Below are positions 5,156-37,365 of a stretch of DNA of 37,455 nt, in pieces. This stretch comes from Microgenomates group bacterium ADurb.Bin219 (GTDB taxonomy: Bacteria > Patescibacteriota > Microgenomatia > UM-FILTER-40-11), in contig MWCH01000010.1 in the NCBI GenBank assembly GCA_002069945.1, positions 1 through 37,455 on the forward strand, read 5' to 3'. Under the pieces are notes generated by a model that saw only the letters and a list, made by a program, of their open reading frames with translations, did no database searches and had not been told where the DNA came from. Each line of letters starts with the position of its first letter. Position 1 is the stretch's first letter. The position numbers and the translations under genes are program-made.

Positions 5156-6815
5156 TGGGATACAGAATCACTAATAATATTAATCCGGTAAAGGAAATTA
5201 AAGAAAGTGAATTAGCAATTTCTCTTAAGGGTGTATTTTCAAACCAGCCAACAACGGTATGTTTTCCTTGTGGAACAGTAAGTTGAATCAAACCTAAATC
5301 ATTATCATGGCTAAAAGGAACTGCTTGCTGGTCCACCAAGACTATCCAGTTGGGAAAATCAAAAACGGGAACCCTTACCCTTACCGGCTCGCTTCCAATC
5401 GTTTCAATCGTAAATCTCCAAAAATCTGATCTTTTACCGAACTCTGTAATTTTTGCCTGCCCTGAAACTACCCATGGCGAATCTGGAGCCAAAGTCTTGG
5501 GATATTGCCCAACTTGAATTGGCAGATAATCCATAAGCGTCGCCATTGATTGAGTTTTATAACTTTCTCCTGAAAGAATTAAATCATCAGTTGTTAAGTA
5601 ATTTTTTTGTGGACGGAAATAACTGATATTTAAGATAATTGTTAATAAGATAACTACAATGGCGATAAAATATTCCCTTTCTTTAAATAAACTGACTAAG
5701 CTCCCTACCAAAAAAGAACCAAAAAACATCGCCAATGCCAAAAATCTCCAGGGAAATTGGATAAAAGATACCAAAGGCAGTCTATCCCAAATAAAAACAG
5801 ACTTCCCGTGGGTCAAAAATACGACCAAAGACCAAAAGAGAAAGAGCAAAATAACCGGCAAAAATTTCCGTTCTTTTTTTTTAAAATATTTAATTAGACT
5901 TAATCCGCCGGCAATTAATGCCAACGGCCACTGAGGAAAACCAAGCTGAAATGACATATCATCAACCGGCCCGGGTCTTGACGGACCATATTCGAATGAC
6001 CGGTCAAAAAAAAGTTGCCTTATCGTGGCAAAGTGATTATGAAAATTATAATAATCTGTAGTTAACGTCTGGATTTTAACCAGATTTTCTTCTAAAAATG
6101 CCGGAATGATAAAAAATGATGAGAGCCCAAAACTCCAGACAAAAATTAAAAAAACTTCCTTCAATTTTTTCATTTTCCCAAACTTAACAAGCCAAAAGAT
6201 TGACCAAACAAGCGCAAACGGAGTAAAAACAAAAGTCATTATATTATGAGAAAGGAAAAGTCCAGATAAAGATAATATTCCCATAACAAAAAAAGAAAGT
6301 TTCTCTTCTCTAATAAATTTATAAAGACTTAGAAAAATTAATGGAAAAAAAACCACTCCCCAAGATTCAGTCATCGCCCCCCTGACATAAACCTCAACCG
6401 CGTGGTAAGGCGCATAAGCGAAGATAACTGCGCCCGTTATTGCCGGCCATTTCCCGAAAAACTCCTTCAGAAGAAGATAGACAAAAATACCGGAGGCAAC
6501 TAAAGTTAATAAAAACAAAATCTTGACCGAAGAAATAAAACTTAAGCCGAATATTCTAAAAATTACCCCCAAATAATAGGCAAAAACCGGATGGTAATTA
6601 TAAAGGGGGTGGCCGTACCCCGCTCCCATATCCGAAACCCAACGGCAGGGTAGTTGTCCGTCATAAAAACATTTCTCCATTTGATAAAGACGCATGATTT
6701 GAACATCGTCATGCATCGTAAAATAGCCACTTTTGGCCAGCGGTATACAAGTACCCAAAAGAAGAATCAACAAAAACAGAAAATATTTACTTTCTTTTTT
6801 GAACCAGTTTTTCAT
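5127..6815 (-). CDS. PTPS-related polytopic membrane protein, tandem copy 2
   Basis: 562-residue paralogue of its two neighbours. The first loop shows H35-D36-D37 with Gln at 39, CRWV (57-60) and GYGHPLYNYHPVFAYYLG, followed by about ten hydrophobic helices. The internal QFPWRFLALA segment is shared with all copies. The C-terminal soluble part contains FDFPNWIVLVDQQAVPF and a LIQLTVPQGKHTV strand pair, the same fold as the other copies. The HDD pair after the first helix is in the position of the catalytic acidic residues of GT-C enzymes (inference). Both ends overlap neighbours by exactly 29 bases (6787-6815 and 5127-5155), with no visible Shine-Dalgarno, which suggests translational coupling. 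Confidence 0.78.
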   Translation of the reverse strand: MKNWFKKESKYFLFLLILLLGTCIPLAKSGYFTMHDDVQIMRLYQMEKCFYDGQLPCRWVSDMGAGYGHPLYNYHPVFAYYLGVIFRIFGLSFISSVKILFLLTLVASGIFVYLLLKEFFGKWPAITGAVIFAYAPYHAVEVYVRGAMTESWGVVFFPLIFLSLYKFIREEKLSFFVMGILSLSGLFLSHNIMTFVFTPFALVWSIFWLVKFGKMKKLKEVFLIFVWSFGLSSFFIIPAFLEENLVKIQTLTTDYYNFHNHFATIRQLFFDRSFEYGPSRPGPVDDMSFQLGFPQWPLALIAGGLSLIKYFKKKERKFLPVILLFLFWSLVVFLTHGKSVFIWDRLPLVSFIQFPWRFLALAMFFGSFLVGSLVSLFKEREYFIAIVVILLTIILNISYFRPQKNYLTTDDLILSGESYKTQSMATLMDYLPIQVGQYPKTLAPDSPWVVSGQAKITEFGKRSDFWRFTIETIGSEPVRVRVPVFDFPNWIVLVDQQAVPFSHDNDLGLIQLTVPQGKHTVVGWFENTPLREIANSLSLISFTGLILLVILYPNDKDKKTTR

Positions 6816-8454
6816 ATTTTAACAAAACAATAACAAAAATTAACCCCAGAATTGTGGCAACGTCGCCGATAACGCGGATCGGAGTCCTTTTCAATTTCGC
6901 GAAAATTTGGTGCTCGCCGCGAGGAACCGTAAAGGTGATTAATCCCAGATAATTATTATAGTCAATTAAAACTTCTCTGCCGTCTACATAGACCTTAAAG
7001 CCGGGAAAATAGAAAAGCGGAAGTCGAATTTCCGCTTCCTGACTGGCAACATTTATTTCTCCTTTTTGCCAGTCGGATCCTTTGTTATACGAGGTAATCC
7101 GAACGTCTCCTTTGATTATTGTTGGTTGATCTGGAGCCTTAGTCGCCGGAGGCATTTTGGCAAAAATTGGCAAATAATCAAAAATACTGATCGTTAATTG
7201 TTTTTCCCAACTTTCCCCGGAAAACTTCTGCGTATCAGAAATGTCGTACCACTCTTTGGGTCTAAAATAAAAAACGTTAAGGAAAATTACTCCCCCAATT
7301 ATTATAAAAAGCAAGAAAAATTTGATTTTAATTCCTTTTACAAAAGAAATCACTGAACCGGAAATTACCGAAGTAGCAAAAATTACTAAAGTTAAAAATC
7401 GCCAAGGGAATTGAAGGTAACTTAAAAACGGCAACCGGTCCCAAACAATAACCGAGCGCTGGTGAGCCATAAAGGCTCCAGTCAAAAAAATTAGAAATAA
7501 AAAAATAATTACTTTTGACATCTTGATCGATTTATACTTTAAAGAAATAATGGCCATGGCGATGAAACTAAACAACCAGTGAAAAATTCCAATATAAAAG
7601 GAAAGATCATCATATGAACCAAGCTCGCTTGAGCCAAAACCCCAATGGGTAATTGTGAAAAGCTGGCGCAGAGAAACAAAGTGCGCCAGATAATTAAAGT
7701 AGCCCATGATCATCGTTTCCGTATGAGCAAACCTTTTCTCAAAAATTAAAGGCAGAATAAAAAATCCAGCTAGGCAAAAACCCAAAATCCCACCTAAGAA
7801 GATTTTTACAAGCAAGTTTTTCTTTTTTTGCTGCCAAAGAAGAAAAATTATCCATAAACCGCTGATCGGAATAAAAATCAGGGAAGTAATGTTATGGGTA
7901 ATCAAAAGACCGGCTAAAGAAAAGGAGAAAAAAACAAGATATTTTATTTTTTCACTTTTAATAAATTCAAAGATCGACCAAAAAATTAAGGGTAAAAATA
8001 TCAACGCCCAAAATTCACCGACTGCTCCCCGAGTATAGACGTCTGATGCCCGATAGGGAGCGTAAATGTAAAAGACGGCACTAACTAATCCTCCCCAATC
8101 TCCCCACAAAGAGCTGCCCAATAGAAACATCGCCAACCCGGAAAATACAAAACTTAAAATGAAGCCAATTTTTACCGAATCTAAAATAGAGAAACCTAAA
8201 AGGTGAAATCCTTCCATTATGTAGTAAGGCAACGGAGAATAATAGATAAACTGAGGATAACCATAACCGTAACCCATATCCGGAACCCAACGACAAGGAA
8301 TTTGCCCGTCATTTATACACTTGTCCATTTGCAGAACTCGCATCGCCTGCATATCATCATGCATTGGAAAATAACCAGGCCTTAAAAGTGATCGAAAAGA
8401 GAAAAAAGAAAGTAAAATTAAGAGAAAAACAAGCCCAAAAAACCTACCTTTCAT
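6787..8454 (-). CDS. PTPS-related polytopic membrane protein, tandem copy 1
   Basis: 555-residue first member of the tandem trio and first gene of its transcription unit. It has H32-D33-D34 with Gln at 36, PCRWVPDMGYGYGYPQF and SPLPYYI in the first loop, the shared LQFPWRFL segment, roughly ten helices, and a C-terminal soluble domain with YFPGFKVYVDGREVLI and ITFTVPRGEHQI. The paired Phe-Pro-Gly and beta strands resemble the C-terminal domain of YfhO-like proteins (family knowledge). The ATG at 8454 is set by an extended -10 that ends six bases upstream; there is no Shine-Dalgarno. Function is probably transfer of a polyprenyl-linked sugar outside the cell, unproven. Confidence 0.78.
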   Translation of the reverse strand: MKGRFFGLVFLLILLSFFSFRSLLRPGYFPMHDDMQAMRVLQMDKCINDGQIPCRWVPDMGYGYGYPQFIYYSPLPYYIMEGFHLLGFSILDSVKIGFILSFVFSGLAMFLLGSSLWGDWGGLVSAVFYIYAPYRASDVYTRGAVGEFWALIFLPLIFWSIFEFIKSEKIKYLVFFSFSLAGLLITHNITSLIFIPISGLWIIFLLWQQKKKNLLVKIFLGGILGFCLAGFFILPLIFEKRFAHTETMIMGYFNYLAHFVSLRQLFTITHWGFGSSELGSYDDLSFYIGIFHWLFSFIAMAIISLKYKSIKMSKVIIFLFLIFLTGAFMAHQRSVIVWDRLPFLSYLQFPWRFLTLVIFATSVISGSVISFVKGIKIKFFLLFIIIGGVIFLNVFYFRPKEWYDISDTQKFSGESWEKQLTISIFDYLPIFAKMPPATKAPDQPTIIKGDVRITSYNKGSDWQKGEINVASQEAEIRLPLFYFPGFKVYVDGREVLIDYNNYLGLITFTVPRGEHQIFAKLKRTPIRVIGDVATILGLIFVIVLLKYEKLVQKRK

Positions 8455-8492: not shown

Positions 8493-10517
8493 TTAAATTA
8501 TTATCTTGACGTCCTTTTCTTCCGAACACTGCAACGGTAAAACTTTTTCTTCCTCGTTTTTACCTTGCATAACTACTTCCGCTTTAATGCAAAAAAGCTC
8601 TGGTTTCTCTTTTTGGATTGATCTAATAATCCTTGAAACTTCTTCGTTCCCTTTACCCTTTATAACTAGGTAGTCTACCTCCCTCAAGTGGACACCGGAA
8701 ATTAAATTTGCCTTATCAATTCCTTCCTGCCCAAGGGCTGGATCCAAGTAGCCGGCGAAACGAACAAAGTGATCCGGTACAACTTTTCTTAATCGCAAAT
8801 CGATTACTTCGGGATTTTCCCCGATTACCTCAGATAAGCTTTTAAGAGCCTTACTCCAGTCAAACATCACCCGTGGAAACATATAAACCATTTGCCACTT
8901 CCCTCTTTCGGCTAGGATTGTCCCATCACTCCTTTGCAATCTTTTGAGCGGAAGAGATCCCTCTCTAGTGATTATTTTGGCCGAAGGATCATATCCCAAC
9001 CATAAAAGATCCCAATTCCAAACTTGCCGCCATTGATTGTTAACTTTTAAAAAGGAGATTTCCGGCTCATGACTTAAAATTCCATATTTCGTTTCATAAA
9101 CTACCTTATACTTTGCCTTGGCGGACTGAGAATCATTTTTTAGCTCAAGTAACTCAGTCTTGATGTCTCTCGTTCCCAAAGTCTCAAGAAAATACTCAAG
9201 GGAATCAATAAATTGCTTCTCTGAAAGATTTTTCCTCTCGTCAGGGATGGTACTCCGATAAAGCTCATGGTAAGCCCTGGTGGCAAAAAACCTTCCTACA
9301 GCTTCGACATCACCGACCGGATTTCTGGCCGAAAGAGAAGAAAACAAAAACGGAAAGCTTAAGCAAGAAAGTAAAAATAAAAATTGCTTGTGTTTTTTTA
9401 AGAAGAAGACGGTAATTAAAATAAAAAATGGAATCGTCGGCATCAAGTAGCGGGGAAAAAAGACAAAATGGTCTATCAGCAAAAAAACGCAAGTTAAGCA
9501 GGAAAGATAGAAAATACTGATTTCCCTTTTCTTGAACGACAAAAAAATTACGGGCAAAAGTAAAATCGTTCCTACTGGCAAAATTAACGAGGCACCGCCA
9601 ATGGTCTTTTCTTTTGTCCACCACCAACCCTGATAGGAATTTGAAAAAATATTTTTCCAGACCAATAAATAATCCCTAGGGCCTGATAATTTTAAGGGAT
9701 CCATGTAAAAACTGAATTGCTTCTGGTGAAGTCTTAACCAAGGAATCGGATTGGGGTGTTTGATAAAGTAGCAAAAAAAGGCAAGCACGTATCCGGCAAA
9801 AACTGAAATCAAATAGCCGCTAAAACCAACAACCTTCCTCTCTTTCTCTTGCTTAAAATAAATAATGGATTCCAATAAAAAAACAAAGGGCGTATAAATT
9901 CCTGGTTTTGTCCCGGTTGCTAAACCCAAAAAAAGTCCTGAGGTAATTAAGTATTTTTGCTGCCTTTTTAAAAGAAATTTGACGAAAAAGAAAGCGTGAA
10001 CCAGATAAAAAAACATTAACGGCAGATCTAGCATGGTCTCCCCTATTTGTGTCGATACGAAAGGGGTGACCAGGAAAAAGAGTACCCCCAGCAGGGAAAG
10101 AGATGTTTCCTTAAGAATTTCTTTACCTAAAAGAAATAAAAAACCAGCTGAAAACAAATAAAGAACAATGCTAATCCAATATGGATTACCTAAATATTTT
10201 TCCGCCAATCCGTATAGATACTTTCCGAAAGGCGGCATCTCGTAATTGATATTAAAATGGTTTTCTCCTTCCGCCAAACGGTAACCAACAAATTTATAAA
10301 GCTCTCCGTCAGAAATTCCGCGGGTACTGTTGGGATAGTTCCATTGCGAATGATAATACAAGCCTTCATAATATTCCGGCTCATATCGGTAGAAAAAAAT
10401 GTGCCTTTGAAAAAAAAGAATAATCCCTAAAACTAAAATAATCAACAAAAACAAGAAAGCATTCGGCACTGTTTTTAATAAGGAAACTGAAGTAATTAAG
10501 TTTTTCTTAATTCCCAC
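8493..10517 (-). CDS. PMT/GT39-like membrane protein fused to an NTF2-like/PBP N-terminal-like region
   Basis: 674 residues, GTG start overlapping the preceding stop by 11 bases. Residues 1-395 are a GT-C membrane domain of the GT39/PMT type: ISDGELY (68-74) in the first loop, YEMPPFGKYL (92-101) like the PMT His-Pro-Pro-Gly-Lys motif, and ETMLDLPLMFF (160-170). Residues about 401-515 look like the NTF2-like N-terminal domain of PBP2a-type transpeptidases (MecA_N), with TKYG at 476-479, FLKVNNQW (489-496) and VWNWDLL (499-505). Residues about 516-620 resemble the pedestal that follows it in those PBPs, including DGTILAERG (531-539), VPDHFV (580-585) and ISGVHLREV (606-614). The transpeptidase domain, including SxxK, SxN and KTG motifs, is absent. 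The fusion reading rests on remembered family patterns, not on a search. Confidence 0.75.
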   Translation of the reverse strand: MGIKKNLITSVSLLKTVPNAFLFLLIILVLGIILFFQRHIFFYRYEPEYYEGLYYHSQWNYPNSTRGISDGELYKFVGYRLAEGENHFNINYEMPPFGKYLYGLAEKYLGNPYWISIVLYLFSAGFLFLLGKEILKETSLSLLGVLFFLVTPFVSTQIGETMLDLPLMFFYLVHAFFFVKFLLKRQQKYLITSGLFLGLATGTKPGIYTPFVFLLESIIYFKQEKERKVVGFSGYLISVFAGYVLAFFCYFIKHPNPIPWLRLHQKQFSFYMDPLKLSGPRDYLLVWKNIFSNSYQGWWWTKEKTIGGASLILPVGTILLLPVIFLSFKKREISIFYLSCLTCVFLLIDHFVFFPRYLMPTIPFFILITVFFLKKHKQFLFLLSCLSFPFLFSSLSARNPVGDVEAVGRFFATRAYHELYRSTIPDERKNLSEKQFIDSLEYFLETLGTRDIKTELLELKNDSQSAKAKYKVVYETKYGILSHEPEISFLKVNNQWRQVWNWDLLWLGYDPSAKIITREGSLPLKRLQRSDGTILAERGKWQMVYMFPRVMFDWSKALKSLSEVIGENPEVIDLRLRKVVPDHFVRFAGYLDPALGQEGIDKANLISGVHLREVDYLVIKGKGNEEVSRIIRSIQKEKPELFCIKAEVVMQGKNEEEKVLPLQCSEEKDVKIII

Positions 10518-12039
10518 TATTTAAAATTTCATAAAATAATAAATTCTCCATGGCACCGGTTTTTAAATTCTCTGCCTTAGCGTAAGCAGCTATCAGTCTT
10601 AACTTTGATGTATCTTTAATCTCAAAACGGGTGTCATTCACTAACAAGAACACCCTACTATCCACTAAACCATTAAGCAACTTATCAGGAATTTCTTTGA
10701 TTGGGTAACCAACACCAATAATGGTAATATTGGGAACTTTCTCCAGATAAATTTGTAAGCCGTCAGGCAGAGTCCCAAAATAACCCTCAGTACCAATCAA
10801 AACTTTTCGGTTTTTTGCCACCTCTTTAAGATAAATCGACGCTTCATTAATTCCATAACCAGCAGTCCACATTTCTAGGTATCCGCTTCTTTCATTCTCC
10901 GGTAGCCAAGCCCTTGCCGGCTGACTAGTTAAAAGAAAAAGTTCATAAATGGGAAAAATAAATATCGCAATTCCAAAAATCACCGCCAGCGATTTTCGTT
11001 TGATACCTAATATTTTCTCTAAGCTGTAAGCGGCAAAAATTAAAAAAACAGGTAGCGAAAACAATACATATCTGGCGGTAAAAACTTTGGCCACGGCACA
11101 TTGAGCCACTAGCGGCAGAACAAGCCAGCTAAGCAAAAATACCCCTTTTTTTCTTTCCCTTCTCAACATTCCCAAAATTCCCAAAAGTCCCAAAATAAAA
11201 ACCGTTGGAGTCGTTAAAGTCCAAAACCAATTAATCACGTTTTTAAAGTTGCTAAGAAAAGGACTAAGCGGGTGTTTTAGAACTTCACCGAAAGAGAAAA
11301 GATAATCTTTATTCCTAATCGCAATCATATGAAATTCCGGTCCCAAGCGGAGAAAGTTATAAATTGCAATTCCAAAAAGATAGATAATCATCCATAAGAT
11401 TACTATTTTACCCAATCGAAGTAACTGTCCTTTTCGATTAAAATCAAAAAGAAACAACGTCACCGGTAAAAGAAGAGTAAAAAAGATTGCCGGAGATTTG
11501 GTAATTAAACCTAAGCCAAGAATTATCCCGCTAATCATCGTTAAATCGAGCCTTGGTTTTTTAACTAACCAAACACTAAATACTAAAAACCAGATGCCAA
11601 AAAACGACAACAGACCATCAGCTAAAGCCAGACGGTCAAAAAAGAAGGCAAAAGGCGAAGTAAGATAAAAAATCACCGCAAAAGTGGAAAAGCAACTATT
11701 GCTAAAAAGCAAGTAGCTTAAAACAAACATCCCTACCATCGTTCCGAATCCGGAAATGACTGAAAGCATTCTCCCGGCAACTAAAGGATCCTTAAAAACT
11801 TTCAAAAAGGGAATCACTAACCACATAAACAAAGGTTGTTTCCCGTCGGAAAGCGGTAAAAACCTGAGAGTGCTTTCCGCTCTCATTACTTGGGCCCACC
11901 TGATATAAATCGCTTCGTCGGCAAAAACGGGAATAACGGTTAAATTGAATAACCGCGTAAAGAAATAAGCTAAAATTAAAAAAGCGGCCAGAAGTAAAAA
12001 TTTAGAATTCAGTTTAAGAAAAGATTTAAGATTTAACAT
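10507..12039 (-). CDS. PMT_2/ArnT-like GT39 glycosyltransferase
   Basis: 510-residue GT-C enzyme of the dolichyl-phosphate-mannose protein mannosyltransferase superfamily (PMT_2). It likely transfers a sugar from polyprenyl phosphate to an acceptor outside the membrane. The key acidic pair D41-E42 sits in VFADEAIYIRWAQ right after the first helix; the second loop has SDGKQPLFMW (64-73), the ArnT/PMT-type substrate loop; and FDRLALADGLLSFFG gives the next conserved Asp. About twelve helices are followed by a soluble tail of about 150 residues with LIGTEGYFGTLPDGLQIYL. The ATG at 12039 is five bases after the stop of the GT2 gene. It overlaps the next gene by 11 bases. Substrate unknown. Confidence 0.85.
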   Translation of the reverse strand: MLNLKSFLKLNSKFLLLAAFLILAYFFTRLFNLTVIPVFADEAIYIRWAQVMRAESTLRFLPLSDGKQPLFMWLVIPFLKVFKDPLVAGRMLSVISGFGTMVGMFVLSYLLFSNSCFSTFAVIFYLTSPFAFFFDRLALADGLLSFFGIWFLVFSVWLVKKPRLDLTMISGIILGLGLITKSPAIFFTLLLPVTLFLFDFNRKGQLLRLGKIVILWMIIYLFGIAIYNFLRLGPEFHMIAIRNKDYLFSFGEVLKHPLSPFLSNFKNVINWFWTLTTPTVFILGLLGILGMLRRERKKGVFLLSWLVLPLVAQCAVAKVFTARYVLFSLPVFLIFAAYSLEKILGIKRKSLAVIFGIAIFIFPIYELFLLTSQPARAWLPENERSGYLEMWTAGYGINEASIYLKEVAKNRKVLIGTEGYFGTLPDGLQIYLEKVPNITIIGVGYPIKEIPDKLLNGLVDSRVFLLVNDTRFEIKDTSKLRLIAAYAKAENLKTGAMENLLFYEILNSGN

Positions 12040-12044
12040 TTGAA

Positions 12045-12806
12045 TTATTGGTTATAGCGGCCTTTTATATCATTAATCTTAACCCGAATAATCTGTTCCA
12101 GCATTTCAACTGATTCTTTTGAATAACTTCTCTCTTTTCCCTTACTGACATCGCGATCGAACCATTCTACCGGCACTTCTTTAATTTTATAACCGCTTTT
12201 TTCCGCCAAAAAAAGTAATTCCACATCAAAAGAAGTAACTTTCCAGCCCTTAACCTTCTCCGACTCTTTAAAAAACTGCAGCCTCGGAAAAAGCTTTTCG
12301 GCAATATCCTTTCTGAAAACCTTAAAACCGCATTGAGTATCATCGATATCCCGGAGTAAAATTATTTTTCTAAAATTTCTAAATACGCTTGAGCCAACTT
12401 TTCTTATCAGGGAAAAGTTTTCCCTCTCCAGGCCCCTTGAACCGATGACAATTTCATATTTATCAAAAAAAGGAATTAATTTTGCCAATTCTTTAATCGG
12501 CGTTGATTGATCCATGTCGGTAAACAAAACAAACTCGCCTTTCGCCTTTTTAATCCCCTGCCAAATAGCGAAAGGTTTGCCTCCGTGTTTATTAGCTATA
12601 AGGGAAAAACCTTCTTGTTCTTTTATTGATTCCTTAATAATTTCTGTACTTCCGTCATTGGATCCGTCATCGGAAATTATGACTTCCCAAGCAAAGTTTT
12701 GTTTGCTTAAGTAATCCAATACTTCATCTAAAACTCCTCTTTGCAGATTTTCCTTTTCGTTATAGCAAGGAATAATTATTGATAAATATGGTTTCTTGTT
12801 ATTCAT
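12045..12806 (-). CDS. GT2 polyprenyl-phosphate glycosyltransferase (ALG5-like)
   Basis: 253-residue GT2 enzyme, closest in motifs to dolichyl-phosphate beta-glucosyltransferases (ALG5 group). It shows IIPCYNEKENL (11-21), SDDGSNDGS (45-53), HGGKPFAIWQGI (74-85) and TDMDQSTP with the D97xD99 metal site, then the characteristic DTQCGFKVFRKD and EVPVEWFDR strands near the C-terminus. No membrane segment is visible. It lies in the 18307-8493 unit with five-base gaps on both sides, between a GT-C gene and a PMT gene, and would provide the lipid-linked sugar donor for them. Sugar identity (Glc or other) is not decidable by eye. Confidence 0.88.
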   Translation of the reverse strand: MNNKKPYLSIIIPCYNEKENLQRGVLDEVLDYLSKQNFAWEVIISDDGSNDGSTEIIKESIKEQEGFSLIANKHGGKPFAIWQGIKKAKGEFVLFTDMDQSTPIKELAKLIPFFDKYEIVIGSRGLERENFSLIRKVGSSVFRNFRKIILLRDIDDTQCGFKVFRKDIAEKLFPRLQFFKESEKVKGWKVTSFDVELLFLAEKSGYKIKEVPVEWFDRDVSKGKERSYSKESVEMLEQIIRVKINDIKGRYNQ

Positions 12807-26310: not shown

Positions 26311-27237
26311 TTAATCCTGGTCTTTTCTCAGTTTATAGAAAGCGCCGACAAGAAGAATCAATCCCAATCCGCCCAAAAAGTAAGGCCATTTTGATTTGGG
26401 CGTATTTTCACCTTTGACTTCACCTTCGGTTGCTCCGGCTCCGGCCAATTCTCCTTCTTCCTCCGAATCCTGATCGCCGGTCGGACCTTCTTTGGGTAAC
26501 CGAACCACCGTTCCCGAACTTCCGGATTTAACGGTTTGACCGGTAGTCGCGCCGGCGACCTGACCGGCACCGACAACTCCAGGAGCATCGGTAACGACAT
26601 CAGAAGCGTTTCCGGCGTGATCCAAGGCTCTTAAAGCGAAATAATAGTCAACGTCCCAATCCCCGCCGATTTCGCGGGATTTCGACTCACCCGGAGCGCA
26701 ACCGACTTCCGCAACCAGGGTACCGGAATCAGCCGTAAATGAAATTTCTTTAGATCTGTAAATATAGACTTTCTCAAAATCAATATCCGCCGGACATTTA
26801 AAATACAATCTGAAGACGGTAGCGTTAATTCTTTCTTTCCGATAATCCTCTACTTTACCCGGCGCCGTTGTATCTAAGGTCAGCTCAACAGTGTCGCTGT
26901 TCTTGGTGGTAGCACCGCTGACCGCCTGGGCATAAAATTGATATTTTCCTTCACCGGAAAAATCTTCTCCCCGCGTCTGAAATTTACCGGAATAATCGGT
27001 TTTATCTTTATCCGCCGTTTGTTTCCAGTCGGCCGCTCCTTCTTTCTTTATAAACAAATTGACTTTAATGGTCGCCTGGTCGGTTTCAATAGCGGTATAA
27101 AAAATCTGGAAATCGGTTGTATTGACCATACTGGGCGGCTGATTAAGAACAATATTCAACTCGCCGGCAAAAGCAGGAGTCGTAAAAACAAAAACCGTAA
27201 TGATTAAACTTAAAAAGATCTTAATTATTTTTTTCAT
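26311..27237 (-). CDS. Exported Ig/FnIII-like protein with a C-terminal membrane anchor
   Basis: 308 residues. Signal peptide at 1-24 (ends TPAFAGE), a first beta-sandwich module around 26-122 (LNQPPSMVNTTDFQIFYTA onward), and a second FnIII-like module around 124-215 with TAPGKVEDYR and YYFALRALDHAGN. A Gly/Glu-rich linker (215-281) leads to one helix (284-302) and a short basic tail. It is membrane-anchored on the outside; a structural or partner role for the giant protein next door is inferred from the 17-base overlap with that gene (27221-27237). LPKEG at 247-251 is too far from the helix to serve as a sorting signal. Exact domain family is not certain. Confidence 0.78.
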   Translation of the reverse strand: MKKIIKIFLSLIITVFVFTTPAFAGELNIVLNQPPSMVNTTDFQIFYTAIETDQATIKVNLFIKKEGAADWKQTADKDKTDYSGKFQTRGEDFSGEGKYQFYAQAVSGATTKNSDTVELTLDTTAPGKVEDYRKERINATVFRLYFKCPADIDFEKVYIYRSKEISFTADSGTLVAEVGCAPGESKSREIGGDWDVDYYFALRALDHAGNASDVVTDAPGVVGAGQVAGATTGQTVKSGSSGTVVRLPKEGPTGDQDSEEEGELAGAGATEGEVKGENTPKSKWPYFLGGLGLILLVGAFYKLRKDQD

Positions 27238-30200
27238 AGTCTTTTTTGCGATCAGCCATTCCTCTAAGTGAAAAGCCTAAAATTATAAAAGCAATCGCCA
27301 AAATCAGATAATCGTTAGGGGAGCCGGCCGCCGGTAAAACTTCGCCTGTGCTCGCGCCCAAAACCGAACCGACAATATTGGCAGACAAAGATAAAACCTG
27401 ACCAACCGGAACCTTTGAATAAGCCAGACCGCTGTTAACACCGAGACCGGTTCTTATTTGTTTTCCGGAAGCATAAGCGATATTGGTATAAGTACTCCCC
27501 TGGTTTCCCGAAGGAATAACCGCCTGGTATTCAATAACATTCACTTCTCCAGAGCTTAAATCACCCAAACTCCAAATCAAAATTGAACCGGTAATTACCG
27601 GAGTTGCCGAGGCGCCGTCAATTTTTCCCGAACCGGAAACGTAGGTAAAGCCAAAGGGCATCACGTCCATCACTGTTCCGTTGGTTAGCATTCTCTTGCC
27701 GTTGGTCACGGTTAAAGTATAAGTAACCGTCTCTCCGGCCGAAGCCCCGCTGGTTTTATTGTTGGTTTTTGTTAAAGCTAATTCAGCCGGAGCCACATTA
27801 AGGAAATCTTTTTCAAAATCGGCGCCGGAAGTTAAGTTCATTTCGTCGGTTATCCGGTAATCGTCCTGGGTAGTAAATCCGTCTGTCGGCGAATAGCCGT
27901 TAATCTGGGGATCTTTCAAATCCTCTTTTACTCTATAAGTTCCTGAGGTAAGATTACCGAAAAGGTAACATCCGGCTTCTCCGGTTTCGGCAACAAGAAC
28001 TTCTTCCCATACTTCTTCACATCGGTCATCAAAAGCGGCAACCGTCAATCCGTCCTGCTGGCGGCAAGTTTTCTTTTCCAAGATTAAAGTTACGCCGCTG
28101 ATTCCGATTTCGCCTTCCTCTTTTACTCCGTCTCCGTCCAAGTCGTCATATTTGCAGGCATTAATTTGGCCAAGTTTGAAATTACCGAAATTATATTCCG
28201 GACCTTCAACCATATTTTGGGAAACAGAAAATCCTAACGGGTTGGAATCCGGTAAAGTGACTAAATGACATGCCGGCTCGATCGGATACGTTTGAAGCCA
28301 ACCCGATTTTTGAATCTCGCAAACTCGATAGGTACCCATAACTAAATCTTCAAACCAATACCAGCCAAAATGTAATGGGTCCGAATCCGAAGAAGTTGTC
28401 GTCTTTAGTTCGCCAGTATCCCATAAAGAGTTATTGTTTTGGTCAATGAAGATCTCCCAGCCGGGAAGCTTTTCTTCATCATAATCAACCATCCCATCGC
28501 TATCCAAGTCGTCCCATTTATAACCATGGATAGATCCGTTCTGATGATTGCCAACATAGCAAACCAGTCTTTGGCCGGGATTAACGATAACTGATTCACC
28601 ATTCGCTGGAGCGGCAACTTCCACAAGCATGAAATTGTTAACGTCATTATTGCTCTCACAATAAGTAACGGTATGCTCCCAACCAATCTTAGTATTTTCC
28701 GTCAGAATATAGTTACCGGAAGCCAAATCAAATAAGGTACTGCCGGAGTTGTCGGTCGTCTGAGTTGTGGCGCTACCACCGACTTTTGTCATAACCATCT
28801 CCCAATCGGAAAGATATGGTTCGTCTGTATCTTTAACCCCGTTTCCGTTTAGGTCATTAAATTTATAGACAGTAATCTTTCCTCGATTGACATTGCCAAA
28901 TTCAAGTTCATTATTGGAGTGTATATCGTCGTGAATAGTGATACTCTTGCAATTATCGGAAGTAATCTGCCAGCCTGATTGCTCAATCTCTTTTACCCAA
29001 TAAGTTTTTCCTTGATAAAGACCTTCAAACTTCGCCCGACCGGGTAATCCCGTTGACTCATCGGTAACGGCACTCGTCAACGGTGTGCCGGTGCAAGTTT
29101 CGTTATCATAGAGCTCCATTGTCCAACCATTAAGAGTATTTTCCCCTGTGTCCCAAGTATTATTCATGTTATCGTCTTCATATTTCAAAACATATAAAGG
29201 CAATGATTTTCGAGTATTGGTTATGGTGCAATTTTTGTCTTCACCGGCGGCCAAAACAATATGGCCGGTGGAATCGCAATCACCGCCAAAGACGGCGGTG
29301 TAATTATTTAAATCGGTCCCTGTCCCGGCTGTCTCTGTAACCGCATGATTATAACCAATATCTACTCTCAGCAGATTTGAGGTAAAGTTATTGCCAACAT
29401 CGGTACCAACCTGATTGCCATCAATAAATAAATTAAACAATCCGGGATCATCAGACGGTGAAATCAATTTGGTTACGGTCAAGGTTGGGATTTTTGTATT
29501 GGTAAAAGTACAAACGACAGTCTCGCCCGCTTCCAAACTAATATTGGCTAAATTTCCGGCCGCGGCGCTTGGACCGCTATTTTGATTCGGATCAAGACAG
29601 GTAATATTAGTTAAATTCCAGCCGGTCGAAACGGTTTCCGATACCGAATACTCACCCGAAGCAATCCACCCGCTTTCAGTTGACTCACCGTCACTTAGAT
29701 TAAGATTGGTTCTACTCCAACTCGGATCAAATTCAAAAGACTGAGTTGATCCATCGGGCAAAGTTTGTTTTTCAATAATGATTTTGCCGCCTTCTAGCTC
29801 AACCGTGGCATCGTCTGTTTTTGTATCTTGAGAACCTTCGTTATCAGTACCAACCGCTTCTACAACGTCCGTATAAAAACCAGGAGCACCGCTAACTGCA
29901 CCAGTAAACTTACAAGTATATTTACCACCGTTGGCCAAAATGGTAACCCCTGTCTTGCAGGTTCCATTATTGTTTAAGTTGCCATAAACATCATCTGTGA
30001 GGCTGGTTAAGGTTACATCCTCTTTACTATTGTTCTTTATCTCGACGGTAAACTCGACATCACCACCCGGAACCGGTAGTAAAGTTGTGCCGGCGGTCTT
30101 GGTCACTTCAATAGACGGTTTAACGTCAGAAAAGTCAACCGTAGCGTCATCATCGTCAGTCGCTTCGGTCTTGTCATTATCAACCGCTTTGCCGGTAAAG

Positions 30201-32512
30201 ACATTGTTGTGGTCAGCTCCGGAATGATCTCCTTCAACCCATGTGGTAATGTCAAATTCACAAGAAGCACCGGCAGCCAGGACAATGCCAACGGCACAGT
30301 CGGCATCACCGGTCAAAGTACCGTAAACAGAATCTTCAAGACTGGTAATGGTAACCGGTTCTTCGGTGGAGGTGTTTTTAACTTCAAAGGTAAAGGTCAC
30401 ATTGCCGCCGGTTTCCGGAACACTGGTGGGATCGGCGGTCTTGGTCACTTCAATAGACGGTTTAACGTCAGAAAAGTCAACCGTAGCGTCATCATCGTCA
30501 GTAATACCACTGGCGGTTGCAGTCACAATATTGGTATGGTTTTGTCCCGCTTCTCCGGAAATATATTTGGTAAATTTGCATTCGTAATATCCTAAAGAGA
30601 CAATTGTTTGTGGCACGTCGCAGGTCCCCACTCCATCTAGATCTCCAAATTTATTATCAGAAAGAGAGGTTAAATTTATCGACACAGCGCTGGGATTTTC
30701 AACTTTAACCGTAAATTCTACATTACCGCCGGTTTCGGGAATCGAAGTCGGGTTAGCAGTTTTTAAAACATTCACGCTTAATTTGGAATTAGTAAAGGTA
30801 CACGTGATTGTCTCACTGGGATCCAATTCCAAACTTGCGGCAGTTTCCGTATCACCAATCGAGCTAATACAGGAAGAAACCGTATTCCATCCGCTGATTG
30901 CCGTTTCCGCAACCGAATATGTGCCAGCCATTAATTCCTGTTCATTTGGAGTAGCCGTGTCAGTAAGACTAAATCCGGAATATCCCGAACCGGTAGTCGT
31001 AAAGTTAAAGCTCTGAGAATCTCCGGAAGGATTAGTTACTTTGTCAACAACAATTTTTCCTTGCTTATACGAGTTGGTAAAAGTACAAACTACTGAGTCA
31101 ACTGTATTGCCCGCACTCCCTATTACAATATTTGAGATATTAGTTCCAATGCCACTAAGATATGACGAACCGTTTTTCGCACAATTCCAGAAAGTAGAGT
31201 AATCATTGATATTAGTTCCCAAGCCGGCTGTTTCCGTAATGCTATAAGTTCCAAGATCTACGGCAAGAATGCCCGTATTACCATCTCCACTTATTGATGG
31301 ATTAAGACTGGTTGGACCAGAAATTGTAAAGTTCCAATTTGTTAATGAATTGTTTGGATCTACGTCCTTATAAATTACCAAGATGCCTTTGTTGTTGCGA
31401 ATAATAATACAATCAGACGGATCGGAGTTTGGTTGCTCCGAAGGATAAGAACAAACATCTAATAAACTGGCACTCAAAGGGCCGCCGACATCTTCCAATT
31501 GGATCGCACAAGTTACTTTGGCATCTAAAGGATAGTCCTGACCCGTAATGAAAGGATCATTGTTGGCTAAAGACATTTCGCATGTGCTGGAAATTCCAGT
31601 AACTAAAGCGCTATCAGCGCAACGATCGACCCTTTTATCACTACAGCTATAAAGTCGCGGACTATCCTCAATTTGAATCCTATCGCCCTTCCAGGTAACG
31701 CATAGAGAATAATTGGCGTAACCGTCGTTGTCTGTATCAAATAACGAGCAAGCGTCTGCCGTATTGGATCCAGAAAGAGAAGTAATATCCCAATTCCAAT
31801 AGACATTCAGGGGATCTATTGAACTTAAATCTCGACAAAGCAAGGTTAAATCTTTTTGGCCCGGTTCATCGTTTGCTCCATCTGCGTCAGGTACGGGAGT
31901 ACAAGAAAAAGAGGCAGCTAGAGTTGATAGTTGAAGAATCGACTGGGGAGGTATAGTCGTTGGCGTTGGCAGAGAAGTTGTTGGTGTAAGTACAATTGTA
32001 GGAATAATCGTTGGAATCTCAGTCGTACAAGAACCATTATTTAACCAGTCCTCTTCTGCTGTCGTTAAACTTAACTCGCTTATTCCACCATTAAAATAGT
32101 CAGTAACGATACCCTCAGATAAACAAAACCATTTGGCAACCTTAGTCGCTTCTTCTTTATTTTTGCTCGCCGAAATTTTAACAATTGCTCTTTTAACGGT
32201 ATCGGCAACGCAAGTTCCTCCCGCGGAACAAGTTCCGGCGTAAATTGAAACAGGGTTAGTACCGGCAGTGCTTTGAATCTCCGTTTTTGTTGAGGCTTTC
32301 CAGAAAAAATTGTAGCCTTCGGAGTCCCAAGGCTTATCGAGTGAAAAATCAAAAGTATTTGAGCCCGGAGTGTAATTGGCGGAGACGGTAGGAGAAGCGG
32401 CAAAAGCTTTCTTGACCAAAAAAGGAACTACCGGAGCGATAGTGTTAATAAAAAGATTTACCGCCGTTAAGAGAGAAACAACTTTCTGAAAACGACTTGC
32501 TTTTTTTGACAT
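27221..32512 (-). CDS. 1763-residue modular surface protein with LPAAG sorting signal
   Basis: Very large exported adhesin- or S-layer-like protein. Order of parts: long signal peptide (1-39, ends KKAFA), unique Cys-containing region (40-375) with a Thr/Pro linker at 164-190, prealbumin/SpaA-like modules at about 376-480 and 484-577, three DUF11-like modules (579-682, 685-797, 799-905), two more prealbumin-like modules (908-1006, 1009-1101), four SdrD B-like modules with Asn/Asp-rich loops such as DLNGNGVKDTDE (about 1105-1208, 1211-1322, 1326-1444, 1448-1572), and a last DUF11 module (1577-1685). LPAAG (1726-1730), a hydrophobic helix and a basic tail end it, the layout of a sortase substrate although canonical is LPxTG. 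The sortase gene is just upstream. A consensus promoter drives it. Confidence 0.9.
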   Translation of the reverse strand: MSKKASRFQKVVSLLTAVNLFINTIAPVVPFLVKKAFAASPTVSANYTPGSNTFDFSLDKPWDSEGYNFFWKASTKTEIQSTAGTNPVSIYAGTCSAGGTCVADTVKRAIVKISASKNKEEATKVAKWFCLSEGIVTDYFNGGISELSLTTAEEDWLNNGSCTTEIPTIIPTIVLTPTTSLPTPTTIPPQSILQLSTLAASFSCTPVPDADGANDEPGQKDLTLLCRDLSSIDPLNVYWNWDITSLSGSNTADACSLFDTDNDGYANYSLCVTWKGDRIQIEDSPRLYSCSDKRVDRCADSALVTGISSTCEMSLANNDPFITGQDYPLDAKVTCAIQLEDVGGPLSASLLDVCSYPSEQPNSDPSDCIIIRNNKGILVIYKDVDPNNSLTNWNFTISGPTSLNPSISGDGNTGILAVDLGTYSITETAGLGTNINDYSTFWNCAKNGSSYLSGIGTNISNIVIGSAGNTVDSVVCTFTNSYKQGKIVVDKVTNPSGDSQSFNFTTTGSGYSGFSLTDTATPNEQELMAGTYSVAETAISGWNTVSSCISSIGDTETAASLELDPSETITCTFTNSKLSVNVLKTANPTSIPETGGNVEFTVKVENPSAVSINLTSLSDNKFGDLDGVGTCDVPQTIVSLGYYECKFTKYISGEAGQNHTNIVTATASGITDDDDATVDFSDVKPSIEVTKTADPTSVPETGGNVTFTFEVKNTSTEEPVTITSLEDSVYGTLTGDADCAVGIVLAAGASCEFDITTWVEGDHSGADHNNVFTGKAVDNDKTEATDDDDATVDFSDVKPSIEVTKTAGTTLLPVPGGDVEFTVEIKNNSKEDVTLTSLTDDVYGNLNNNGTCKTGVTILANGGKYTCKFTGAVSGAPGFYTDVVEAVGTDNEGSQDTKTDDATVELEGGKIIIEKQTLPDGSTQSFEFDPSWSRTNLNLSDGESTESGWIASGEYSVSETVSTGWNLTNITCLDPNQNSGPSAAAGNLANISLEAGETVVCTFTNTKIPTLTVTKLISPSDDPGLFNLFIDGNQVGTDVGNNFTSNLLRVDIGYNHAVTETAGTGTDLNNYTAVFGGDCDSTGHIVLAAGEDKNCTITNTRKSLPLYVLKYEDDNMNNTWDTGENTLNGWTMELYDNETCTGTPLTSAVTDESTGLPGRAKFEGLYQGKTYWVKEIEQSGWQITSDNCKSITIHDDIHSNNELEFGNVNRGKITVYKFNDLNGNGVKDTDEPYLSDWEMVMTKVGGSATTQTTDNSGSTLFDLASGNYILTENTKIGWEHTVTYCESNNDVNNFMLVEVAAPANGESVIVNPGQRLVCYVGNHQNGSIHGYKWDDLDSDGMVDYDEEKLPGWEIFIDQNNNSLWDTGELKTTTSSDSDPLHFGWYWFEDLVMGTYRVCEIQKSGWLQTYPIEPACHLVTLPDSNPLGFSVSQNMVEGPEYNFGNFKLGQINACKYDDLDGDGVKEEGEIGISGVTLILEKKTCRQQDGLTVAAFDDRCEEVWEEVLVAETGEAGCYLFGNLTSGTYRVKEDLKDPQINGYSPTDGFTTQDDYRITDEMNLTSGADFEKDFLNVAPAELALTKTNNKTSGASAGETVTYTLTVTNGKRMLTNGTVMDVMPFGFTYVSGSGKIDGASATPVITGSILIWSLGDLSSGEVNVIEYQAVIPSGNQGSTYTNIAYASGKQIRTGLGVNSGLAYSKVPVGQVLSLSANIVGSVLGASTGEVLPAAGSPNDYLILAIAFIILGFSLRGMADRKKDYEKNN
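30091..30160. repeat. 70-base direct repeat, copy A, in the surface protein gene
   Basis: Identical in every base to 30433-30502, 342 bases (114 codons) away. It codes for the junction DDDDATVDFSDVKPSIEVTK between two DUF11-like modules. This is an intragenic module duplication with recent sequence homogenisation, not a mobile element. Confidence 0.9.
30433..30502. repeat. 70-base direct repeat, copy B, in the surface protein gene
   Basis: Second copy of the identical 70-base unit at 30091-30160. The modules on either side have diverged much more than this junction, so homogenisation is limited to the hinge. It could support module gain or loss by recombination. Confidence 0.9.
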
Positions 32513-32532
32513 AACAGTGGTTTGTTTCCAGA

Positions 32533-32561
32533 ATTATATCCTATATATCTAGCCATGTCAA
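32533..32561 (-). promoter_or_regulatory. Full consensus promoter for the surface protein unit
   Basis: Minus-strand TTGACA (32556-32561), a 17-base spacer and TATAAT (32533-32538): both hexamers match consensus exactly with the optimal spacer. The predicted leader is about 14 bases with no clear Shine-Dalgarno. It is the strongest promoter in the window, fitting a highly made surface protein. Confidence 0.85.
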
Positions 32562-32640
32562 ATTTTCAACGATTTAAATTGCCTCGAAAAAATCACCTGG
32601 AGAAATCGTCTTTGCCTAGCTTATATCCAATAATTATATT

Positions 32641-33285
32641 TTAATTATTGATCTCTTTTTTCTTTGCTCTGACAATAAGCCTTTTAAGAGTAGTCCCGGG
32701 AGGATAACAGGTTTGTAAAGTTAAAATTTCTTCTTCGTCCGAGTCCAAATAATGAATTGCTTCCGGAAAAACGACCTTTTTTTCAATTACTTCATAACGG
32801 AAAAGACTGTTCTTGTAAAAAATGTCAATTTCATCCCCGTTTTCCAGTTTGCCTAGCAGATAAAAAACGGCATTATATTGCCGAAAGTTCAAAAACGAGT
32901 CGGTTGAATGGGCAAACAAATAAATATTCCTTCCCCCTCCCGGAAAACCGGTTCCTTTAGCGTGGGCAACGCCCTCCTTTAAAACCGGAAGATAACCTTT
33001 TGAATCAAAGGGGCTGACTTCGGCAAAAATCTTGGCGTTGGCCTTAATCTTGGGAATTACTATCCCAAAATTCAAATCGACCGGTTCAATATATTTTGCT
33101 TTTTCGTCAAAAAAAAGCCGGTCGTTGTTTGTCTGCTCGGTATCCGTGTTCGGATCGGAAACCAGATAAGAAACTCCGGAAAAATTTTTGATCTGGTAGT
33201 TTATTTCCAAAATTAAAGGTTTGGTAAAAATCAACAGTAATAACAAAATTCCCAATAAAATGGCGATATTCCCGATTTTTTTCAT
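32641..33285 (-). CDS. Sortase
   Basis: 214-residue membrane-anchored transpeptidase of the sortase superfamily; subclass not assigned (class D/E-like by length). A single N-terminal helix (about 6-26) is followed by the catalytic domain: H126 in YLFAHSTDS, C193 in TLQTCYPPGT and R202 in LKRLIVRA form the expected His-Cys-Arg triad. It cleaves a sorting motif in exported proteins and joins them to an envelope acceptor; the LPAAG protein encoded directly downstream is the obvious candidate. The ATG at 33285 is nine bases after the galE stop, so it is probably transcribed with galE and the VanZ-like gene, while its presumed substrate has its own strong promoter. Confidence 0.9.
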   Translation of the reverse strand: MKKIGNIAILLGILLLLLIFTKPLILEINYQIKNFSGVSYLVSDPNTDTEQTNNDRLFFDEKAKYIEPVDLNFGIVIPKIKANAKIFAEVSPFDSKGYLPVLKEGVAHAKGTGFPGGGRNIYLFAHSTDSFLNFRQYNAVFYLLGKLENGDEIDIFYKNSLFRYEVIEKKVVFPEAIHYLDSDEEEILTLQTCYPPGTTLKRLIVRAKKKEINN

Positions 33286-34790: not shown

Positions 34791-36143
34791 TTAGAAAGTA
34801 TCAATTTTTATCTTCTGGCCCCGGTTTTCTTTAACAAGGAAAAATCCGGACAAGCCCAATAAAAGCAATCCGGCAAAAACAAAACTCCCGGCCGCAATCT
34901 TAAATTTTTCCTTACTCCCGTTTTTGGCCAAAGGACTTGGAGTCGGCGTTATTTGGGCACCCAAAACTACAGGAGTTATTTTGTTCCGCTGTAAATCAAG
35001 CAAAGCTTCCTGGTCTTTGAGTTTGAGAAAGTCGGTCGGCGAAATTTCCGTCTCGGTTGGGATTAAGGTTAAGACCGGTGTTAAAGTCGGTGTCAAAGTT
35101 GCAACCGAAACAAAACAGGTTGGATTGGCACTATCCGGCGTGGGATTGGTTTCACACCAATTATTGCCGCTATCTTTTGACCAGGATTTACCTTTAGTTG
35201 AAGATGAATACGCTTTTTTGTCCTTTTCCGCCTGGGAGCCGTCCAATAACCGAACGTCGTCGCCGTCATTATTAAGAAAAAAATCGGAAAGAAAGATCCG
35301 TTTATAACTTTTGCCGCCGATTTTTTCCGAGATCATTTTGGGTGTCTGGCCGCTTTCGGCAACATCATCTATATACCAGCCGGACAAATCAACCTCGGAG
35401 CTATTATCGTTGTAAAGCTCAACCCATTCGTTGCCCGACTCCGGCCAAGCCAAAAATTCGGAAAGGTAAATATGGGAATAAGAATTTGGCACAGGCGTAT
35501 TGGTAGGAACAGGGGTTGAAGTCGGTAAAATTATGGCTACAGTTGGTGTCGGTGTAGTTGTCGGTAAGGGCGTAGCCGTCGGAATAATTTGGTTTGAGCC
35601 ACCAGGGGTCGGATCCAGTTTCTCTGCGTAGAGACTGCCGCCGTCGGGAATCTTCCCCCAGCTTTTATTTTCCGAAGATCCGGAATAAGCCAAACTATCA
35701 ATTTTTACCGGTGTTGAAGAGTTGTCCCAAAGACTGATTTCCTCACTCCCGGAATTATTCAAAGAAAACGAAGAGTGGTTGTTTCTTCTAATTAATAACC
35801 AGCTTTTTCCATTGATAACGGTACCCGACGAAGCGTAATCGGTCGTAATTATCAACTCGTGATTATCCAAATCTTTTAACCTATAACCGGAAACGTCAAT
35901 CGCCGTTTCGCCATTGTTATACAGCTCAACCCATTCGTTGGCCACATCGTCTCCGACCGGATCCGGCAGAATTTCATTAATAACCACTTGGGCAAAAATA
36001 TTGGCAGAGAAAAGAGGAAAGGAAAGAAAAAAAAGGAAAATAACCAATAACCCCTTTTTTATTCCCAAGTTTACTTTTGACTTTTGCCTTGCTCCCTTTT
36101 GGAAATCCCTTCGGGAAGTAACTTTTAACTTAATAGTTGACAT
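34791..36143 (-). CDS. Exported protein with two lamin-tail domains and a C-terminal anchor
   Basis: 450 residues counted from ATG 36143. Hydrophobic signal segment at about 31-51 (ends NIFAQ), first lamin-tail domain (LTD) at 52-180 with VINEILPDP and NEWVELYNNGETAIDVSGYRL, a Thr/Pro-rich linker (187-220), second LTD at 225-343 with YLSEFLAWPESGNEWVELYN and VDLSGWYIDD, another Thr/Pro linker, and a helix at 417-437 with basic tail. LTDs are beta-sandwich folds found in secreted bacterial proteins and nucleases. It is membrane-anchored outside, probably structural. The start is uncertain: ATG 36143 overlaps the M23 gene by 14 bases, but a TTG at 36068 gives a normal signal peptide and leaves the repeat-rich 36069-36129 as spacer. 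Confidence 0.82.
   Translation of the reverse strand: MSTIKLKVTSRRDFQKGARQKSKVNLGIKKGLLVIFLFFLSFPLFSANIFAQVVINEILPDPVGDDVANEWVELYNNGETAIDVSGYRLKDLDNHELIITTDYASSGTVINGKSWLLIRRNNHSSFSLNNSGSEEISLWDNSSTPVKIDSLAYSGSSENKSWGKIPDGGSLYAEKLDPTPGGSNQIIPTATPLPTTTPTPTVAIILPTSTPVPTNTPVPNSYSHIYLSEFLAWPESGNEWVELYNDNSSEVDLSGWYIDDVAESGQTPKMISEKIGGKSYKRIFLSDFFLNNDGDDVRLLDGSQAEKDKKAYSSSTKGKSWSKDSGNNWCETNPTPDSANPTCFVSVATLTPTLTPVLTLIPTETEISPTDFLKLKDQEALLDLQRNKITPVVLGAQITPTPSPLAKNGSKEKFKIAAGSFVFAGLLLLGLSGFFLVKENRGQKIKIDTF
36069..36135. repeat. Short AAAGT-type repeats and a small hairpin at the LTD gene start
   Basis: Read on the minus strand this holds AAGTTAAAAGTTACTT and CAAAAGTCAAAAGTAAACTT, the same unit found inside trmD, with CTTCCCGAAG between them. 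It is either the N-terminal 25 codons of the LTD gene or a spacer between two genes. Confidence 0.5.
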
Positions 36144-37365
36144 GTAAATAATAGGTGTTCAAATTATCTTCGTTGTGTTTAACCCGGACGTATTGCAAAG
36201 TACAACCACCGACAAAACTGCCCCAATAAAGCTCACCGGCCTTAACAGCTTTGACTTCGGTATTGGCGCCTTCAACATCAATCCCGTTGTGAAATTTATA
36301 AATTTTACCGACCCAGGTATGTTGGGTTGCCCAGGTATTGCCGTATCCCTGATTTAAAATAATTTTGGGGTTCATCGGCCAATTCCAACCGCCGCCGGGA
36401 TTGAAAGCGTCTCCATCGCCGCTGCCGCAAGCCGATCCGGAACAATTCAAATAATCTATCCCGCCGCGGAGAAAAGAAAACGGATTTTCGGTATTGCCGG
36501 TTCCGTCTCCTTTAACGACCATAAAATGAAGGTGAGTTCCGCTGGAGTTGCAGGAGGCTCCGGAAATGACGGAAGCAATCCGCTCGCCTTCGGAAACATT
36601 TCTGATCTTTTTTTCATTACCTTCTCCGGAAAGGATTCCGGTAATGGCAACCAGTTCCGCTCTAGCCTCGGCAATTAATTTCTCATAAATCGCCTGCTTG
36701 CCTTTGGTTTCCTCCAATAATTTTTTTCGGCTGGCAATTTGGCTGGACAAATTGGCTTTTTGAAGATCAAGCTGCTTTTTTAAAACGACCAATTTTGCCT
36801 GCAATTGTTCTTTTGTCTGTTTTTGCTCGTCATAATTGACCTTGGTCTCCTCCATGGAAAGCAAGAGTTTGCGGTCGTTAAGCTGAATAATTCTGAGGTA
36901 TTTGCTCTTGGCCAAAAACTCGCTTAAGTTTTTTGATCCGAAAAGCATAGTCATCGGATTAACCAAGCCCATCTTGTAGGTTAAGTTAATTCGGGCAATG
37001 AAAATCTTGGAAACATAATCAAGCGACTCGTTCAGCCGGTTAATTTTGGCCGAAAGACCGGCAATTTCGTCTTCAAGAACCGCAATCTGGGTTTCCGCCT
37101 GGTTAATTTTAATCCGGGTCGTTTTCTCCTGAAGAGTCATCGTCTCAATCGCCTTTTGTAAATCGCCGAGGTCTTTTTGGGCCTTATCCCTGGCCGCCTC
37201 GCAAACCGCAATCATGTCGGAATATTCTTTTTCACTGCGTCCTTTGGGAAGCGGCTCACACTCCAAGGCTAAAAGAGAAGAAAAACCCCATGCCGGAGAA
37301 AGAAAGAAAATTATGGCTAAAAACAGACCAGCCAATTGCCTTCTGAAGAATAAATTATTTTTCAT
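36130..37365 (-). CDS. Coiled-coil murein hydrolase with circularly permuted M23 motifs
   Basis: 411-residue exported protein of the EnvC/PcsB-plus-M23 type, expected to cut or help cut peptidoglycan during division or growth. Signal peptide at 1-34, then a long coiled coil at about 52-240 rich in Glu, Lys and Gln. The peptidase part has a reversed order: GASCNSSGTHLHF with H278 and H280 (normally the last motif of an M23 domain) comes first, then the Ser/Gly linker 308-326, then FHNGIDVEG with H359 and D363 and YYLHVNY with H408 at the very end. All five metal or catalytic residues are therefore present. The ATG overlaps a TGA of an upstream frame (ATGA). Confidence 0.87.
   Translation of the reverse strand: MKNNLFFRRQLAGLFLAIIFFLSPAWGFSSLLALECEPLPKGRSEKEYSDMIAVCEAARDKAQKDLGDLQKAIETMTLQEKTTRIKINQAETQIAVLEDEIAGLSAKINRLNESLDYVSKIFIARINLTYKMGLVNPMTMLFGSKNLSEFLAKSKYLRIIQLNDRKLLLSMEETKVNYDEQKQTKEQLQAKLVVLKKQLDLQKANLSSQIASRKKLLEETKGKQAIYEKLIAEARAELVAITGILSGEGNEKKIRNVSEGERIASVISGASCNSSGTHLHFMVVKGDGTGNTENPFSFLRGGIDYLNCSGSACGSGDGDAFNPGGGWNWPMNPKIILNQGYGNTWATQHTWVGKIYKFHNGIDVEGANTEVKAVKAGELYWGSFVGGCTLQYVRVKHNEDNLNTYYLHVNY

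Follow-up and report, generated by a model that had tools for sequence, protein, structure and literature searches.

A PMT-type membrane glycosyltransferase of Microgenomates carries the NTF2-like and pedestal half of PBP2a-type penicillin-binding proteins without the transpeptidase

To our knowledge, the N-terminal half of PBP2a-type penicillin-binding proteins (PBPs) is known only as a support for the transpeptidase, and there is little experimental knowledge of envelope biosynthesis in Microgenomates. In the closest described systems, SEDS polymerases are activated when the pedestal of a class B PBP contacts their ECL4 (PMC8765783), and structures of PBP2a contain muramic acid or a peptidoglycan analogue at a site that is annotated as allosteric (PDB titles 3zfz, 3zg5). 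In Streptococcus, the divisome recruits capsule synthesis, i.e. another polysaccharide system (PMC10233549). Here, we analysed a stretch of 37,455 nucleotides from a Microgenomates genome (the window), which contains a gene where selection retains the PBP2a-type half without a transpeptidase, on a sugar-transferring enzyme.

The gene lies on the minus strand at 8493..10517, starts with GTG and encodes 674 amino acids, as defined by the ORF call, Pfam and alignment. Residues 1-395 (9333..10517, minus strand) form a GT-C membrane glycosyltransferase module, delimited by Pfam, hydropathy and the AlphaFold2 helices. A preliminary description of this DNA had proposed a GT39-like membrane enzyme, and this assignment holds: for the window protein alone, Pfam matches PMT_2 above the cut-off at residues 113-245 (E 6.8e-10) and PMT just above it (E 7.6e-5), and hydropathy together with the AlphaFold2 helices gives a multi-pass core with about 11 transmembrane segments. 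PMT_2 is also found in 13 of the 22 fusion members introduced below. The protein belongs to the PMT/ArnT GT-C superfamily and is not a SEDS protein; among the Pfam families listed for it and for the 22 members, the SEDS family (FTSW_RODA_SPOVE) is absent. The first extracytoplasmic loop (residues 45-110; 10188..10385, minus strand, placed by the alignments) is the most conserved part, with a mean pairwise identity of 52%, and includes the motifs HSQW (56-59), RGISDGELY (66-74, including D70) and YEMPPFGKYL (92-101). D70 is invariant across 29 aligned sequences, and E93, the glutamate of ExPPxGKYL, is absent in two of the 22 aligned fusions and also in the forms of a family designated f28. As in the PMT/ArnT superfamily, D70 and E93 are taken to be the catalytic acidic residues. 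Because the invariant first-loop aspartate of the superfamily is kept, the GT-C part is, as judged from its sequence, probably active with a polyprenyl-phosphate sugar, which the enzyme would take at the outer face. With about 11 segments, both the loop that bears D70 and the C-terminal module would lie outside the cell. The last transmembrane helix (residues 377-395; 9333..9389, minus strand, from hydropathy and the AlphaFold2 helices) carries the PBP-like module and would stand in for the single anchor helix of a PBP.

The preliminary description had also proposed to look for further GT39-MecA_N fusions in Microgenomates, and more than 20 relatives were found. Among 94 related genomes, five others have the same architecture, the nearest with 43% identity in the C-terminus. 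From 374 genomes of the class, a full-protein profile recovered at least 22 full-length fusions without interruption (L015-L036, 610-718 aa). It also recovered a few that a contig end or a frameshift disrupts, and many shorter relatives, about 390 aa long, which comprise the glycosyltransferase only. In a GTDB-wide scan, fusions occurred in records named Shapiro-, Davies-, Collier-, Roizman-, Gottesman-, Levy-, Curtiss- and Woesebacteria, all of them Microgenomates lineages, and the nearest relative of the window protein came from Candidatus Shapirobacteria DeMMO6_54 (51%). No fusion was detected outside the class in 380 genomes of the phylum by a scan via glycosyltransferase motifs, which is tied to this glycosyltransferase family and would miss the same module on other glycosyltransferases elsewhere. 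As for MecA_N itself, almost every match in the class sits on such a glycosyltransferase: of 19 matches in the 374 class genomes, 18 fall in genes of the fusion family and one in a 112-aa frame of f28. A search of these genomes for a donor or partner, a MecA_N-type PBP that includes a transpeptidase, yielded none. Among the 380 phylum genomes, MecA_N gave two matches, the window gene and an ORF of 287 aa. This ORF (G479:C16:18246-18470, L181) belongs to another lineage of the phylum and matches weakly. In a tree of the glycosyltransferase domain only, 24 fusions fall into one clade (SH-aLRT 99) with the glycosyltransferase-only protein L109 nested inside, so that a single fusion followed by a single loss is enough; the fusion is a single clade that was inherited within the class. 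Distant glycosyltransferase-only relatives occur in archaea (Borrarchaeota, Njordarchaeota, Bathyarchaeota and Thermoproteota; L131, L135, L142-L149). In a Chisholmbacteria record (L116:4393-7224) and in two other Patescibacteria (L133:3803-6655, L047:6653-9391), the glycosyltransferase-only relative is fused at its N-terminus to a membrane protein of about 540 aa, which is similar to the YfhO-like protein adjoining the window gene.

The C-terminal extension of the fusions shares homology with class B PBPs of the PBP2a/PBP3/PBP5 type across their entire non-penicillin-binding half, which comprises the NTF2-like domain and the pedestal. In the window protein, an NTF2-like MecA_N domain (residues 400-505; 9003..9320, minus strand; Pfam, profiles and Foldseek) is followed by a shortened class B PBP pedestal (residues 506-674; 8496..9002, minus strand), which stops where the transpeptidase domain usually starts. 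A position check located all motifs that had been quoted, namely TKYG (476-479), FLKVNNQW (489-496), VWNWDLL (499-505), DGTILAERG (531-539), VPDHFV (580-585) and ISGVHLREV (606-614), and the interval 8658-9317 does correspond to residues 401-620. DGTILAERG (8901..8927, minus strand) is the counterpart of the pedestal motif RGxIxDRxGxxLA, and the last pedestal strands (residues 645-674; 8496..8585, minus strand) are the counterpart of GGxLxIxDxxGxVxxxxxxxKxDGxDVxL. A pedestal had been correctly recognized, but its extent had been underestimated, as the shortened form is not only the start of one and runs to the last residue. Likewise, the claim that no transpeptidase motifs follow is right with regard to the domain, but not to the letters, as the SxxK tetrapeptides SFLK, SIQK and SEEK do occur in the C-terminus. 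We rejected these as chance, there being no transpeptidase domain around them. According to Pfam, the transpeptidase PF00905 is absent from all 22 fusion members, and it was not found anywhere on the contig of the window. Because this domain is missing, the window protein is not a PBP, although its C-terminus is homologous to PBPs.

The homology was followed at the level of single sequences, where the evidence for the window protein is marginal, and of the family, where it becomes decisive. A phmmer search of the PDB with the C-terminal 273 residues returned weak matches, the best seven of which were all MecA_N-type PBPs (B. subtilis PBP3, 7bn9, E 0.0028; PBP2a, E 0.04-0.06). A family profile of 22 homologous fusions (690 positions) searched against the same database reached E 6.3e-32 for B. 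subtilis PBP3 (7bn9), 1.6e-27 for PBP2a, about 7e-23 for E. faecium PBP5 and 5.5e-20 for PBP4. The alignment with PBP2a pairs profile positions 388-689 of 690 with chain residues 4-305 and spans the whole NTF2 domain and the pedestal, finishing at the LT with which the transpeptidase domain starts. Pfam detects MecA_N in 17 and PBP_dimer in 13 of the 22 members (best E for PBP_dimer 1.1e-19), and the NCBIfam models MECA_PBP2A and PBP4(5) match 21 and 18 of them, respectively, with a best E of 4.4e-23. According to the alignment, the Gottesmanbacteria pedestal is complete, from ARRGSIISSDKKPLAED through YDGxxGxExxxNxxLKGxNGGxLxxxDxxGxVxxxxxxxxKxDGxD; in the lineage of the window, the middle is shortened and the final strands are retained.

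Structure prediction, which had been suggested as a check along with Foldseek, gave confident models for both the window protein (AlphaFold2, mean pLDDT 90.9, pTM 0.88) and a Gottesmanbacteria member (mean pLDDT 92.5, pTM 0.88). For a two-module protein, a pTM of 0.88 suggests a fixed relative placement of the glycosyltransferase and the PBP module, at least in the models. In Foldseek searches of the PDB with the two models, the 50 best matches listed were all MecA_N-type PBPs, with best E values of 8.7e-11 for the window protein and 9.9e-15 for the Gottesmanbacteria member. The RMSD was often 8-13 Å across the whole unit, and 4.9 Å over 321 columns for PBP5 (9d25); we attribute the high values to differing angles between NTF2 domain and pedestal. 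Taken together, family profiles, structure prediction, Foldseek and more than 20 relatives of the same architecture bear out the assignment to MecA_N and a PBP pedestal, and the overall architecture, as judged by sequence and structure prediction, is near certain.

Since there is no catalytic domain, the C-terminal unit can only bind or regulate. By analogy, we propose that the NTF2/pedestal module acts as a docking and regulatory platform that would keep the enzyme close to newly made peptidoglycan or to SEDS/divisome partners, or alternatively as a gate of its active site, a proposal to which we give an even chance. The result would be a wall-associated acceptor that is glycosylated at sites of wall synthesis. 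Docking or gating is favoured over an acceptor-binding domain or a remnant by the precedents of pedestal-SEDS contact and of the allosteric site in PBP2a. The pedestal is shortened in the lineage of the window, reduced to a stub in f28 and absent in L109, so that its role is dispensable in places. A more specific version, which we regard as rather doubtful, is that the protein is a one-polypeptide analogue of a SEDS-class B PBP pair, in which the transpeptidase-less pedestal would provide a PMT-type GT-C enzyme with its own allosteric activator or sensor of peptidoglycan; if true, this analogue would couple envelope decoration to wall synthesis in ultra-small bacteria. A comparison of the neighbourhoods showed that most fusions do not adjoin peptidoglycan genes. 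The only exception is the genome G193 (L077:6064-16860). There, the fusion gene has a DUF4012 protein on one side and, downstream of it, recO, a class II aminoacyl-tRNA synthetase, mraZ, a class B PBP and a Mur ligase, a position that borders a dcw-like cluster. A Rosetta-stone test found no separate PBP beside glycosyltransferase-only relatives in 20 neighbourhoods, so that a PBP partner is not generally supported by gene neighbourhood. In the window's own genome, another contig encodes a class B PBP that includes PBP_dimer, and three more proteins with a transpeptidase look by eye like class A PBPs; all of these show that peptidoglycan synthesis exists, and nothing more.

Of the competing readings, the most tenable, which we consider possible but less probable than docking or gating, takes the module as an acceptor-recognition domain of the glycosyltransferase that binds a glycan or protein acceptor and is unrelated to sites of wall synthesis. 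Many GT-C enzymes have extracytoplasmic C-terminal domains. The gene context in the window and several other genomes, a polysaccharide cluster that includes GT2, GT-C and flippase genes, speaks for this reading, and we counted this position, in the window and some others, against docking. In the window, the fusion gene is one of several consecutive GT-C and GT2 genes, which are bordered at one end by a gene for a Wzx-like flippase: upstream, it overlaps a PMT_2 glycosyltransferase gene (10507..12039, minus strand; Pfam), followed by a GT2 gene (12045..12806, minus strand; Pfam) for a possible polyprenyl-phosphate sugar synthase, and downstream lies a gene for a YfhO/PTPS_related-like membrane protein (6787..8454, minus strand; sub-threshold Pfam match). 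Both GT2 and GT2-GtrA genes are present in the window, and nearby GT2 genes could make the polyprenyl-phosphate sugar donor. A large surface protein of 1763 aa with SdrD_B, SpaA and DUF11 domains, encoded at 27221-33285 (minus strand) next to a sortase gene, also fits an acceptor domain and is a possible wall-anchored target of glycosylation, and the pTM of 0.88 would agree with a module that is fixed relative to the glycosyltransferase. On the other hand, the locus of Gottesmanbacteria, and partly that of Curtissbacteria, is conserved with an HD hydrolase, an EamA transporter and housekeeping genes and has no glycan cluster, and the paralogues of about 390 aa work without such a domain. Elsewhere in the window (34791-37365, minus strand), a gene for a lamin-tail-domain protein of 450 aa overlaps an M23 peptidase gene.

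It is unlikely that the module is a functionless remnant, decaying since an ancient fusion with a full PBP. Erosion does occur: besides the shortened pedestal in the lineage of the window and the loss in L109, some proteins of f28 (L039-L042) consist of the glycosyltransferase and an NTF2-like stretch of no more than about 60 residues, a stub that is an intermediate stage of erosion. The PBP-like module also evolves faster than the glycosyltransferase part, with mean pairwise identities of 26% and 25% in the module versus 33% in the enzyme. A decaying remnant would, however, not be expected to show purifying selection, under which the pedestal stands in the one close pair that could be used (pedestal codons only, other pairs being too divergent; dS 1.36, dN 0.15, dN/dS about 0.11). 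Moreover, the fusion is kept in seven of seven species of one Gottesmanbacteria genus, one deep clade retains the module, and two members yield confident folded models.

Far less probable still is convergence, i.e. an unrelated NTF2-like domain plus beta structure that came to resemble a PBP. The window protein taken alone leaves some room for it, as its MecA_N match stays below the Pfam cut-off (E 0.0066) and PBP_dimer was not found; the profile, however, reaches E values down to 6e-32 across the entire NTF2-pedestal unit, in order and up to the domain boundary, and relatives match PBP_dimer at E 1e-19 and PBP4(5) at E 4e-23. An assembly chimera or a misjoining of genes is the weakest explanation and has a negligible chance, since, although every member comes from a metagenome-assembled genome, the identical junction recurs in over 20 independently assembled genomes of several lineages.

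The preliminary description knew of no report of such a fusion, and in agreement with this we found no description of it in the open-access literature; the architecture may be listed in automated domain databases. The stand-alone role of the NTF2/pedestal unit, be it peptidoglycan sensing, docking or glycosyltransferase activation, is now directly testable, and the fusion offers a handle on envelope biosynthesis in the tiny uncultured Microgenomates.

Compared to known systems, the fusions share with PMT/ArnT-type GT-C enzymes (PMT_2 PF13231, PMT PF02366) the GT-C core, the invariant first-loop aspartate and the PPxGKYL region, but they add a PBP-derived module, which is missing from the closely related proteins of about 390 aa in the class. 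With class B PBPs of type B3, which contain MecA_N (PBP2a, B. subtilis PBP3 and the enterococcal PBP4/PBP5), they have in common the succession of transmembrane helix, NTF2-like domain and complete pedestal. In contrast to these PBPs, the fusions have no transpeptidase domain, their anchor is a multi-pass glycosyltransferase instead of one helix, and the pedestal is shortened in the lineage of the window. The pairs of SEDS protein and class B PBP (RodA-PBP2, FtsW-FtsI) likewise place a multi-pass membrane glycosyltransferase beside a PBP pedestal, a likeness that is one of analogy only (PMC8765783); unlike these pairs, the fusion holds both modules in one polypeptide and does so without a transpeptidase.
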